From Geoalkalibacter sp. (GTDB lineage: Bacteria > Desulfobacterota > Desulfuromonadia > Desulfuromonadales > Geoalkalibacteraceae), in contig NZ_JAUWAV010000009.1 in the NCBI RefSeq assembly GCF_030605225.1, positions 1 through 64,000 of the forward strand: DNA of 64,000 nucleotides, read 5' to 3'. The notes under the pieces are model-generated. The model was not told where the DNA came from. It did no database searches and was given only the letters and a program-made list of their open reading frames with translations. Made by a program: the position numbers and the translations under genes. Below, piece after piece: positions 6,460 to 49,967 of this stretch (position 1 is the stretch's first letter; each line of letters opens with the position of its first letter).

Positions 6460-7413
6460 TCAGGACTCCGCGAGGTAAAAGGCACGGGTCGTTTCCCGCA
6501 ATGCTTCGATGGACGTGCTGTTGTTGACGAGGGCGCGGTAGGCTGCCGCGCCGTTGAGTCCCCGGGAATACCAGCACAGATGCTTGCGCATTTCACCCAG
6601 CGTGCGCCTTGGACCGAAAAGATCCAGGTGCAGTTCGAAATGCCGCAGGGCGATTTCGAGTCGCTCCTCGGACGTAGGCAAGGGGGACTGCGCATCGCGG
6701 TTCAGGCTGTCGCGCAGCAACCAGGGATTTCCGTAGCCGCCGCGCGCGACCATGACCGCGTCGCAACCCGTTTGCGCCTGCATGGCGTGTACATCGGCGG
6801 CGCTGAAAATGTCGCCGCTGCCGATGACCGGAATGCGAAGCCGCTTTTTCAAGCTAGCGATATGCTCCCATGCGGCCTTGCCGCCAAACCCTTCGGCGCG
6901 CGTGCGCGGGTGCAGGGTGATGGCGTCGGCGCCTTCTTCCTGCGCGATGCGGCCGATCTCCAAAAAGTTGATGGAGTTCGCGTCCCAACCCGAGCGGATT
7001 TTGACCGTCAGGGGACGCGCGGTGACGCAGCGCACGGCGCGAACGATACGGGCCACTCGTAGGGGCTCGCGCAGCAAGGCTGATCCCGCGCCGCCACGCA
7101 CCACCTTTTTCACCGGACAGCCCATGTTGATATCCAGCAGGGCCCCATCGTCTTCCACCAGTGACGCGGCGCGCGCCAGAATGTCCGGCTCGGCCCCGAA
7201 CAGCTGTACCGCCAGGGGCTGCTCTTGAGCGCTGGAGCGCAGCAGTTCCCGCGTCCGCTGCCCATCAAAGAGAAGACCGTTGGCGCTCACCATTTCGCTG
7301 AAGACCAGGCCGGCGCCAAAGTCCTTGGCGATTCGGCGAAAAGGCAAGTCGCTGATGCCGGCCATGGGGGCCAGAAACACATGGTTGGAGAGGGTGAGGG
7401 AGCCGATGCGCAT
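6460..7413 (-). CDS. dusB: tRNA-dihydrouridine synthase DusB/NifR3
   Basis: This FMN-dependent enzyme reduces specific uridines in the tRNA D-loop. The start MRIGSLTLSNHVFLAPMAGI matches the family N-terminus, so I place it at the ATG at 7413 despite a weak ribosome site; the frame continues upstream. Family marks include the catalytic cysteine in NMGCPVKKV, the RGGAGSALL loop, KIRSGWD, and the FMN-phosphate region VMVARGGYGNPW. The length (317 aa) is normal. It is the first gene of a minus-strand operon with the ntrBC-like pair. In alphaproteobacteria the same gene is called nifR3 and shares an operon with ntrBC. Confidence 0.93.
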   Translation of the reverse strand: MRIGSLTLSNHVFLAPMAGISDLPFRRIAKDFGAGLVFSEMVSANGLLFDGQRTRELLRSSAQEQPLAVQLFGAEPDILARAASLVEDDGALLDINMGCPVKKVVRGGAGSALLREPLRVARIVRAVRCVTARPLTVKIRSGWDANSINFLEIGRIAQEEGADAITLHPRTRAEGFGGKAAWEHIASLKKRLRIPVIGSGDIFSAADVHAMQAQTGCDAVMVARGGYGNPWLLRDSLNRDAQSPLPTSEERLEIALRHFELHLDLFGPRRTLGEMRKHLCWYSRGLNGAAAYRALVNNSTSIEALRETTRAFYLAES

Positions 7414-7490
7414 AGAATGACAGGTTGGTTTTGCACAAATTTTGCGCATGGTAGCATGGCCAACCGATCTGGCCAAGGGAAAAAACCTTC

Positions 7491-7557
7491 TTGCGGACTC
7501 CGTCTGAATACTGTATACATTATTTGGCTTGACAATGGCGGACCTGATTGTTAAAAA
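7491..7557 (+). promoter_or_regulatory. Two candidate gltA promoters with a TGTATACA palindrome
   Basis: Two promoter-like pairs lie in the 380-base gap between dusB and gltA. P1 is TTGCGG (7491-7496), a 17-base spacer and TATACA (7514-7519). P2 is TTGACA (7529-7534), a 17-base spacer and TAAAAA (7552-7557). The palindrome TGTATACA (7512-7519) covers the P1 -10 and lies within CTGTATACATTATTT (7511-7525), which recurs exactly at 49934-49948. Either promoter would leave a leader of about 230-270 bases before gltA. I see no gene in the remaining gap (7414-7490 and 7558-7793). Confidence 0.55.
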
Positions 7558-7793: not shown

Positions 7794-9128
7794 ATGGCGA
7801 CACTGAAAGAGATTCTGGCGAAAAAGATTGAGGAATTCCGCCCCCGTACCGCCCGCCTGGTCAAAGAATTCGGCGATGTGAAAATCGGTGATGTGACCAT
7901 CTCGCAGGCCATCGGCGGTGCCCGCGACGTCAAGTGCCTGGTCACCGACATCTCCTACCTCGATCCGCAGGAAGGCATTCGCTTCCGCGGCAAGACCATC
8001 CCCGAAACCTTCGAGGCGCTGCCCAAGGCTCCCAAGTCCAAGTATCCCACCGTCGAGGCTTTCTGGTTTTTCCTGCTCACCGGCGACGTTCCGACCCAGG
8101 CTCAGGTCGACGCCGTGATCGCCGAGTGGAAGACCCGCCAGATCGTGCCCTCCTATGTGTGGGATGCGATCCGCGCCCTGCCGCGCGACAGCCATCCGAT
8201 GGTCATGCTCTCCGTCGGTCTGCTGGCGATGCAGAAGGACTCCAAGTTCGCCGCCTTCTACAACTCCGGCAAGTTCAACAAGAACACCGCCTGGGAATCG
8301 GTCTATGAGGATGCCAGCGATATCGTGGCGCGCATCCCCATCGTCGCCGCCTTCATCTACAACCTCAAGTATCGCAGCGACTTCCAGGTCGCCATCGATC
8401 CGAAGCTCGACATGGGCGCCAATTTCGCCCACATGATCGGCCAGTGCGAAGAGTACAAGGACGTGGCCCGCATGTATTTCATCCTGCACTCCGACCATGA
8501 GTCCGGCAACGTTTCGGCGCACACCACCCACCTGGTGCACTCGGCTCTGTCCGATCCCTACTATGCCTACTCCGCCGGCATCAACGGCCTGGCCGGCCCG
8601 CTGCACGGCCTGGCCAACCAGGAAGTGCTCGACTGGACCCTCAAGTTCCAGGAGAAATACTGCAAGGATCAGGAGCCGACCAAGGAACTGGTCACCAAGG
8701 CGCTGTGGGACACCCTCAACTCCGGTCAGGTCGTTCCCGGCTACGGTCATGCCGTTCTGCGCAAGACCGACCCGCGCTACATGTCGCAGCGTGAATTCTG
8801 CCTCAACACCCCCGGCCTGAAGGACGACAAACTGTTCAAGCTGGTCGCCATGATTTTTGAAACCGCCCCGGGCGTGCTCATGGAGCACGGCAAGGCGAAG
8901 AACCCCTGGCCCAACGTCGACGCGCAGTCCGGCGTCATCCAGTGGTACTATGGCGTGCGCGAGTGGGATTTCTACACGGTGCTCTTCGGCGTCGGCCGCG
9001 CTCTTGGCTGCATGGCCAACATCACTTGGGACCGCGGTCTGGGTTATGCCATCGAGCGTCCCAAGTCCGTGACCACCGCGATGCTGGAGAAGTGGGCCGA
9101 GGAGTCCAAGAAGGCCGCCAGCAACTAA
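7794..9128 (+). CDS. gltA: Citrate synthase, eukaryotic type
   Basis: This enzyme condenses acetyl-CoA and oxaloacetate to citrate, the entry step of the TCA cycle. The 444-aa sequence resembles mitochondrial citrate synthase rather than the usual bacterial hexameric type. It has GNVSAHTTHLVHSALSDPY with the first catalytic histidine, NGLAGPLHGLANQEVL, GYGHAVLR with the second, and the aspartate region in NPWPNVDAQSGV. Such eukaryote-like enzymes are known from Geobacter and relatives, where acetate is oxidised through the TCA cycle. AAGGAGAGAGAGC precedes the ATG. It is a single-gene unit with its own long regulatory region and a strong terminator. Confidence 0.95.
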   Translation: MATLKEILAKKIEEFRPRTARLVKEFGDVKIGDVTISQAIGGARDVKCLVTDISYLDPQEGIRFRGKTIPETFEALPKAPKSKYPTVEAFWFFLLTGDVPTQAQVDAVIAEWKTRQIVPSYVWDAIRALPRDSHPMVMLSVGLLAMQKDSKFAAFYNSGKFNKNTAWESVYEDASDIVARIPIVAAFIYNLKYRSDFQVAIDPKLDMGANFAHMIGQCEEYKDVARMYFILHSDHESGNVSAHTTHLVHSALSDPYYAYSAGINGLAGPLHGLANQEVLDWTLKFQEKYCKDQEPTKELVTKALWDTLNSGQVVPGYGHAVLRKTDPRYMSQREFCLNTPGLKDDKLFKLVAMIFETAPGVLMEHGKAKNPWPNVDAQSGVIQWYYGVREWDFYTVLFGVGRALGCMANITWDRGLGYAIERPKSVTTAMLEKWAEESKKAASN

Positions 9129-49473: not shown

Positions 49474-49833
49474 CTAGAAGCGATAGCAAAAATAATCCGA
49501 GGCGCTGTAATCGAACAGGGAGACGGTGTTGTCCAGCACATGGCCGCTGAAATGGCAGCCGCTCTGATGGTCGAAGCCGTCAAACAGCCGCCCGTGGACG
49601 CTGAAGCACAGGTGTTGGCCGGTTTCGGTCAGAATGCAGAAGTTGGCTCCCTGGGGGTCGCGTTTCACCTTGCAGTTTCTTTCCGGACCGTGCTTGAAAA
49701 CGTGTTGAAAGAGCAGGTTCTCCTCTCCCTTGAGGCTTTTTTCCCGCGAACGGTCATAGAGAACCCTGATGCTTTGATTGCCGATGACCGAACCCGCCAG
49801 ATACGCCAATCTCGCCCGTTTGTCCGCGTTCAT
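49474..49833 (-). CDS. Small hypothetical protein sharing a promoter motif with gltA
   Basis: I do not recognise this 119-aa protein. It is basic at the N-terminus (MNADKRARLAYLAGSVIG), has several scattered cysteines and histidines, and ends with aromatic residues (SDYFCYRF). There is no signal peptide or membrane helix. GGAGGAGAAGG lies just before the ATG at 49833. Its upstream region, on the minus strand, contains the same 15-base element as the citrate synthase promoter, so the two may be controlled together. Confidence 0.65.
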   Translation of the reverse strand: MNADKRARLAYLAGSVIGNQSIRVLYDRSREKSLKGEENLLFQHVFKHGPERNCKVKRDPQGANFCILTETGQHLCFSVHGRLFDGFDHQSGCHFSGHVLDNTVSLFDYSASDYFCYRF

Positions 49834-49933: not shown

Positions 49934-49967
49934 AAATAATGTATACAGAATATTTCTGAAAAAGCAA
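49934..49967 (-). promoter_or_regulatory. Promoter with a second copy of the 15-base gltA element
   Basis: On the minus strand TTGCTT (49967-49962), 16 bases and TATACA (49945-49940) form a promoter. The -10 lies within CTGTATACATTATTT (49948-49934), identical to 7511-7525. The next 100 bases towards the start codon hold a leader with no gene. Confidence 0.55.

Follow-up and report, generated by a model that had tools for sequence, protein, structure and literature searches.

Regulators such as PdhR, LldR, CitO, and McbR combine a GntR DNA-binding domain with an FCD ligand domain, and they usually serve one pathway, while autoregulation is common among them. In Geobacter, two regulators have been connected with the citrate synthase gene gltA. 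Firstly, HgtR (GSU3364) down-regulates gltA, atpG, and nuoA according to the available part of PMC7726332, and excerpts of two further papers state that it represses, or may repress, genes of the citric acid cycle or of acetate metabolism (PMC7894505, PMC8691401). Secondly, the GntR-family regulator GSU3370 of Geobacter sulfurreducens is named as a protein that binds the gltA promoter in the accessible text of PMC10599522, citing Ueki and Lovley 2010. HgtR and GSU3370 are different genes. The system proposed here likewise centers on a GntR-family protein and on gltA, but a wide regulon of TCA-cycle and energy genes, autoregulation, and the palindrome, all reported below for the predicted reader, are not found in the portion of PMC10599522 that was available. 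A literature search with the letters of the palindrome yielded no relevant paper, and a search of the openly accessible literature on GntR regulators, operators, and TCA regulons in Geobacter and Desulfuromonas recognized nothing on the site beyond PMC10599522; the site may already be in print. The palindrome stands in front of most citric-acid-cycle and energy genes of this Geoalkalibacter and its relatives, where it most likely represents the docking site for one GntR-family regulator.

The window, i.e., the whole stretch of 64,000 nucleotides that was analyzed, carries gltA (7794-9128, + strand; citrate synthase, Pfam PF00285) divergently from dus, encoding a tRNA-dihydrouridine synthase (6460-7416, - strand; Pfam PF01207), an arrangement also present in the genomes G028, G030, G001, G015, G063, and G064. 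A first-pass annotation of this DNA had pointed out the 15-mer CTGTATACATTATTT, with two exact copies at 7511-7525 (+ strand) and 49934-49948 (- strand), as a repeat beyond chance of which it had found no further copy. This description is borne out, as these are the only exact copies both in the window and in the whole genome (3,709,786 bases, 3.71 Mb), through which the 15-mer is not scattered. Since only about 0.0005 exact copies are expected per genome from the base composition of the window on both strands, the repeat is not attributable to chance; with up to three mismatches, the window contains 3 matches where 0.14 are expected, a number that none of 100 shuffles attained. The 15-mer is nevertheless not cut at natural borders, and the functional unit is an overlapping 15-bp palindrome, TGTATACWGTATACA, found from a listing of near matches across the genome. 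In front of gltA, the predicted operator TGAATACTGTATACA (7505-7519, + strand) has one mismatch to TGTATACWGTATACA and is conserved among relatives, and its right part corresponds to the first nine bases of the 15-mer. The TTATTT tail of the 15-mer was dropped as part of the operator because it is not conserved among relatives: among 80 gltA loci and 14 loci of orthologues of the second gene (see below), the exact 15-mer including this tail is kept only in L071 (GltA identity 99%), L181 (100% identity), and the own genome (L182). The bare octamer TGTATACA, to which the first-pass annotation had drawn attention as the palindrome shared by both copies, was also discarded as the unit, since it is not over-represented (16 copies in the genome versus about 17 expected from composition, and 0 copies of its reversed-letter control); the enriched unit is TGTATACWGTATACA.

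With up to one mismatch, TGTATACWGTATACA occurs at six sites in the genome versus 0.045 expected, and all of them are located at regulon genes. Perfect copies precede icd, followed by mdh (C24:55033), and a gene encoding a GntR/FCD regulator (C15:71072), while the remaining sites are those of gltA (C9:7505, one mismatch) and, with at most one mismatch, of glyQ (C4:3183), the fumarate hydratase gene fum together with a divergent thiolase gene (C4:110021), and an NAD(P)H oxidoreductase gene at a contig end (C38:42696). This oxidoreductase, presumably SfrAB-like, was recognized from its first 32 residues, which matched other loci, and its domains were determined from the gene in the corresponding position of L212. 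Two mismatches add seven further places, one of which (C38:42703) overlaps the site at C38:42696, whereas the others precede sdhC (C6:102486), acnB (C14:75248), the operon of the ATP synthase B/B' subunit (atpF; C25:56378), an atpZ-type gene followed by atpB (C40:10252), nuoA (C40:18510), and a small gene followed by a rubrerythrin-like gene (C35:30632). All 12 distinct sites with up to two mismatches (12/12) lie at TCA-cycle or energy genes, glyQ, rubrerythrin, or the GntR/FCD regulator gene, the genes having been read as open reading frames and then named by Pfam or NCBIfam. Operator TGTATACWGTATACA would thereby tie gltA to icd-mdh, acnB, sdh, fum, nuo, two atp operons, and the NAD(P)H oxidoreductase gene, and the same operator would also act at glyQ, the rubrerythrin-like operon, and the small gene at 49474-49833 of the window.

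A scan with GltA gave 216 matching stretches, and the best 80 loci were analyzed, the closest of which belongs to a Geoalkalibacter MAG (99% identity). Within 600 bp upstream of gltA (355 bp for L095), the palindrome is present with up to three mismatches in 62 of these best 80 loci and with up to two in 50, while at three mismatches shuffles give about 0.95 per 80 loci and the reversed pattern gives 3. Conservation upstream of gltA, by which the first-pass annotation had proposed to judge the element, thus holds for the palindrome and not for the TTATTT tail. The site is missing in 18 of the 80 loci, 13 of which are labelled Betaproteobacteria, Burkholderiales, Sterolibacterium, Proteobacteria, or Acidobacteria/Acidobacteriota; the others carry the labels Desulfuromonadaceae or Desulfuromonadales (L105, L111, and L136), Deltaproteobacteria (L133), and uncultured bacterium (L095).

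The palindrome also marks the same kinds of genes in relatives. Sites with up to one mismatch were assigned in ten genomes (the own genome, G001, G015, G028, G030, G063, G064, G113, G117, and G188), and 66 of 66 lie at a TCA and energy gene set formed by gltA, icd, mdh, acnB, sdhC, fum, nuoA, atpF/b', atpZ-atpB, glyQ, and the genes of the NAD(P)H oxidoreductase, rubrerythrin, and GntR regulator. Among the site-bearing relatives, GlyQ is 91-96% identical in five loci and the AtpZ-like protein 73-82% identical in four. In G113, G117, and G188, 11 further places with two mismatches were examined, leaving out an overlapping second match beside the regulator site of G188. Eight are of regulon type, namely gltA, acnB, fum, atpF twice, the oxidoreductase gene, and a succinyl-CoA:acetate CoA-transferase gene twice, the latter named by NCBIfam in L244 and by Pfam acetyl-CoA hydrolase/transferase domains in L248; of the other three, L247 and L251 lie inside coding open reading frames and L249 fits no clear class. 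This CoA-transferase carries out the reaction by which Geobacter closes its TCA cycle, and it joins the predicted regulon in two Geobacter-type genomes. The operator is most likely conserved in much of Desulfuromonadia.

The position of the operator with respect to promoter boxes, which are consensus predictions throughout, differs between genes and lineages. In front of gltA, 9 bp separate the end of the palindrome from a downstream TTGACA-N17-TAAAAA promoter (7529-7557, + strand), whose predicted -35 box TTGACA lies at 7529-7534 and whose predicted -10 box TAAAAA lies at 7552-7557. This layout is conserved in the closest relatives (L071-L076, L091, L113, L122, and L135), several relatives having TAGAAC- or TAGAAG-like -10 boxes. 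According to the first-pass annotation, both copies of the 15-mer coincide with a promoter -10; owing to the location of the predicted boxes, this placement was dropped for gltA, where the palindrome lies upstream of the -35 box, while an overlap of the second copy with a weak -10 box is plausible. Among the 62 gltA loci with the site, the operator precedes TTGACA-N17-TAGAAC-like boxes in 10, including the closest relatives, and follows a TTG...TATAA/TATAC box in 51; one locus fits both layouts, and none fits neither; shuffled flanks fit these patterns at 0.3% and 5%, respectively, and these nulls are descriptive because the patterns were set after viewing the sequences. Thus, the operator lies downstream of the -10 box in Geobacter-type gltA loci and upstream of the -35 box here. 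Elsewhere in this genome, the site overlaps the predicted promoter of the GntR gene, icd, fum, and acnB, lies downstream of that of sdhC, and is located upstream of the -35 box of nuoA, as in gltA, while consensus prediction found no clear promoter for the atp, glyQ, rubrerythrin, and oxidoreductase genes.

The best candidate for the reader of the palindrome is the GntR/FCD regulator itself, encoded at G000:C15:70335-71057 as a protein of 241 residues, with the perfect palindrome at C15:71072 directly before its gene. The protein contains an N-terminal GntR winged helix (PF00392, E 2.1e-19, residues 18-79) and a C-terminal FCD ligand domain (PF07729, E 5.4e-27, residues 89-208), the same combination as in PdhR, LldR, CitO, and McbR. 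Unlike these one-pathway regulators, however, it seems to cover most of the TCA cycle together with complex I and ATP synthase. Among 88 genomes of the order, 71 contain a match to the regulator (E <= 1e-30), as do 141 of 167 genomes of the class at E <= 1e-40, nearly always in one copy. In the 30 best-scoring of the 71 order genomes with a hit, including the own genome, the exact palindrome is present in the promoter of the regulator gene in 30 of 30 loci, always between or over a TTGAC-type -35 box and a TACAAT- or TACACT-type -10 box. Such a position over the regulator's own promoter boxes has the layout of autorepression, and because of this perfect copy in its own promoter, the regulator is predicted to be autoregulated.

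Motif and gene occur together as well. In 55 genomes, a set made up of all 17 order genomes without a regulator hit plus 38 of the 71 that have such a hit, the motif (up to one mismatch) and the regulator gene are both present in 38, both absent in 15, and present as motif only in 2, with no genome having the gene only. The Fisher test gives p of about 1e-11, a value that overstates independence because the genomes are related, the absences covering about four lineages. In the same genomes, the palindrome has 349 matches versus 2 for the reversed-letter control. The genomes G063 and G064, which belong to one family, deserve mention here: 10 of 10 of their sites with up to one mismatch (L269-L278) lie at regulon genes, and the search for a regulator orthologue in them found only relatives with 26-40% identity. 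Their fragmented assemblies may lack the contigs concerned, or another protein may read the motif there. Another GntR/PdhR-like regulator (L044:7248-8021), encoded 2.2 kb from the C15 site, was set aside as the reader since the palindrome adjoins the other GntR gene.

From this sequence evidence, it is proposed with good confidence that the palindrome serves as operator for a GntR/FCD protein that regulates central metabolism as well as its own gene, the protein encoded at G000:C15:70335-71057 being the likely reader. This protein is probably the orthologue of GSU3370, an assignment that draws partly on assumed locus tags. Its Geobacter orthologue (L195) lies beside selA-ispD-ispF-glnS, genes recognized by eye, and the same neighborhood is seen in L197; ispF and ispD are taken here to be GSU3367 and GSU3368, and the order assumed for GSU3366-3370 would place GSU3370 in this neighborhood. 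In genomes with both genes on one contig, the GntR gene is located about 150 kb to more than 1 Mb from groEL, a distance too variable to help in placing GSU3364. As regards the site itself, GT..AC palindromes are typical of the GntR family, and the GT and AC boxes of TGTATACWGTATACA are arranged with dyad symmetry, but their spacing differs from the usual FadR-type rule, and the GntR half-site rule is matched only loosely (available part of PMC4494728). What has been observed directly is the motif together with its positions, its conservation, and its joint occurrence with the regulator gene, while binding, the direction of regulation, the dimer, and the ligand are inferred; a footprint over TTTTGTATACAGTAT would tell which protein reads the site.

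Mechanistically, a dimer of the GntR/FCD protein would bind TGTATACWGTATACA. At sites located inside the region of the -35 and -10 boxes or directly after it, as in the regulator gene, icd, fum, acnB, sdhC, and Geobacter-type gltA, the bound protein would block RNA polymerase, while sites just upstream of the -35 box, as in gltA and nuoA here, could serve for either blocking or activation. A ligand of the FCD domain, perhaps an intermediate of the TCA cycle, would release or switch the regulator. A broader reading, put forward tentatively and judged to have somewhat less than an even chance of holding as a whole, combines three elements: the gltA operator would have shifted between lineages, leaving a position downstream of the -10 box (Geobacter-type) for one just upstream of the -35 box (this lineage); in acetate-oxidizing Desulfuromonadia, one autoregulated GntR/FCD protein would switch the oxidative TCA cycle together with complex I, ATP synthase, and an NAD(P)H oxidoreductase throughout the class; and this protein would repress gltA in Geobacter-type loci and possibly activate it in this lineage. 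The gltA promoter would then be a natural case of operator relocation, in which a single protein may have opposite effects on a key enzyme in sister orders. Acetate oxidation via the TCA cycle supplies the electrons that these bacteria transfer to metals and electrodes, and a site marking gltA, acnB, icd-mdh, sdh, fum, nuo, and atp would provide a testable regulon with a named candidate regulator.

The second copy of the 15-mer belongs to a further predicted operator, AATATTCTGTATACA (49940-49954, - strand), with three mismatches to TGTATACWGTATACA, whose likely target is a small conserved gene at 49474-49833 (- strand) encoding 119 amino acids. With up to three mismatches, the palindrome occurs at 19 places in the genome (7 for the reversed-letter control and about 17.6 expected); because this level is dominated by chance, the site at 49940 cannot be judged from its own genome and has to be assessed by conservation. 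A match to the gene was found in 14 of the 58 genomes searched, including itself, L181 and L182 being near-identical members of the 14. Upstream of these orthologues and at a similar distance, the palindrome is found with up to three mismatches in 9 of 14 and with up to four in 11 of 14, versus 0.07 and 0.72 expected from pair shuffles. These counts argue against the view that only the gltA site is a real operator and that the copy at 49940-49954 is weak or decaying and without regulatory effect. This view is considered unlikely, in spite of the three mismatches to the consensus and of the three orthologue regions (L186, L187, and L192) where the best match has five to six, and the copy at 49940-49954 is very probably also a real site. 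Concerning the protein, its family (alignment A1, 11 of the 14 members) has LFDG- and SHFSG-like positions that are invariant or nearly so. No Pfam match was obtained for this member, 1 of 11 family members gave a weak Pfam hit (E 0.094) and none a convincing one, a family profile had no match in the PDB, and the single-sequence fold was uninformative (mean pLDDT 40).

The first-pass annotation had considered a shared operator plausible, with HgtR as its reader. The shared operator is upheld by the gltA copy in 62 of 80 loci, by the second copy in 9 to 11 of 14 orthologues, and by the palindrome genome-wide, while HgtR is not the best-supported reader. If the palindrome were the binding site of HgtR (GSU3364 family), the GntR gene would be merely another target. 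The operons of the HgtR targets reported in the accessible text of PMC7726332 (gltA, atpG, and nuoA), which are also predicted targets here despite HgtR being a different gene, do carry the motif in this genome (C9:7505, C25:56378, and C40:18510), and the position downstream of the -10 box in Geobacter-type gltA is a place for a repressor. However, the motif is perfect in all 30 GntR-gene promoters inspected and tracks the presence of that gene, and GSU3370 is the GntR protein named as binding the gltA promoter (available part of PMC10599522). An HgtR site is therefore regarded as quite improbable, and HgtR is kept as a possible reader or second regulator because the counterparts of its reported targets carry the motif. 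That both copies are a chance or compositional match of AT-rich -10 regions is very improbable: TGTATACA is no commoner than its composition predicts and the second site is three mismatches off the palindrome, but the minute expectation for the exact 15-mer, the conservation upstream of both genes, and the site-to-gene specificity of 66/66 speak against it. The GntR/FCD regulator thus remains the preferred reader.

Three further observations can be added. Geobacter-like citrate synthases with 82-84% identity and without the operator are present in L114, L115, L123-L125, L129, L132, L138, L144, L145, and L147. These 11 loci are labelled Betaproteobacteria, Burkholderiales, Sterolibacterium, or Proteobacteria; they may stem from a transfer of the gene that left the regulatory site behind, or the bins may be mislabelled. 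At L046:5244-8300 (G000:C21), a gene for a formate dehydrogenase alpha subunit contains an in-frame TGA, as expected for selenocysteine, and has the half-match TGTATACACTGTATG upstream. Finally, downstream of a copy of TGTATACA, an open reading frame of 483 residues (L054:5610-7058, G000:C62) encodes a secreted-looking protein with Asn/Asp/Ser-rich repeats (NSDNSLNTADSFNTTD).
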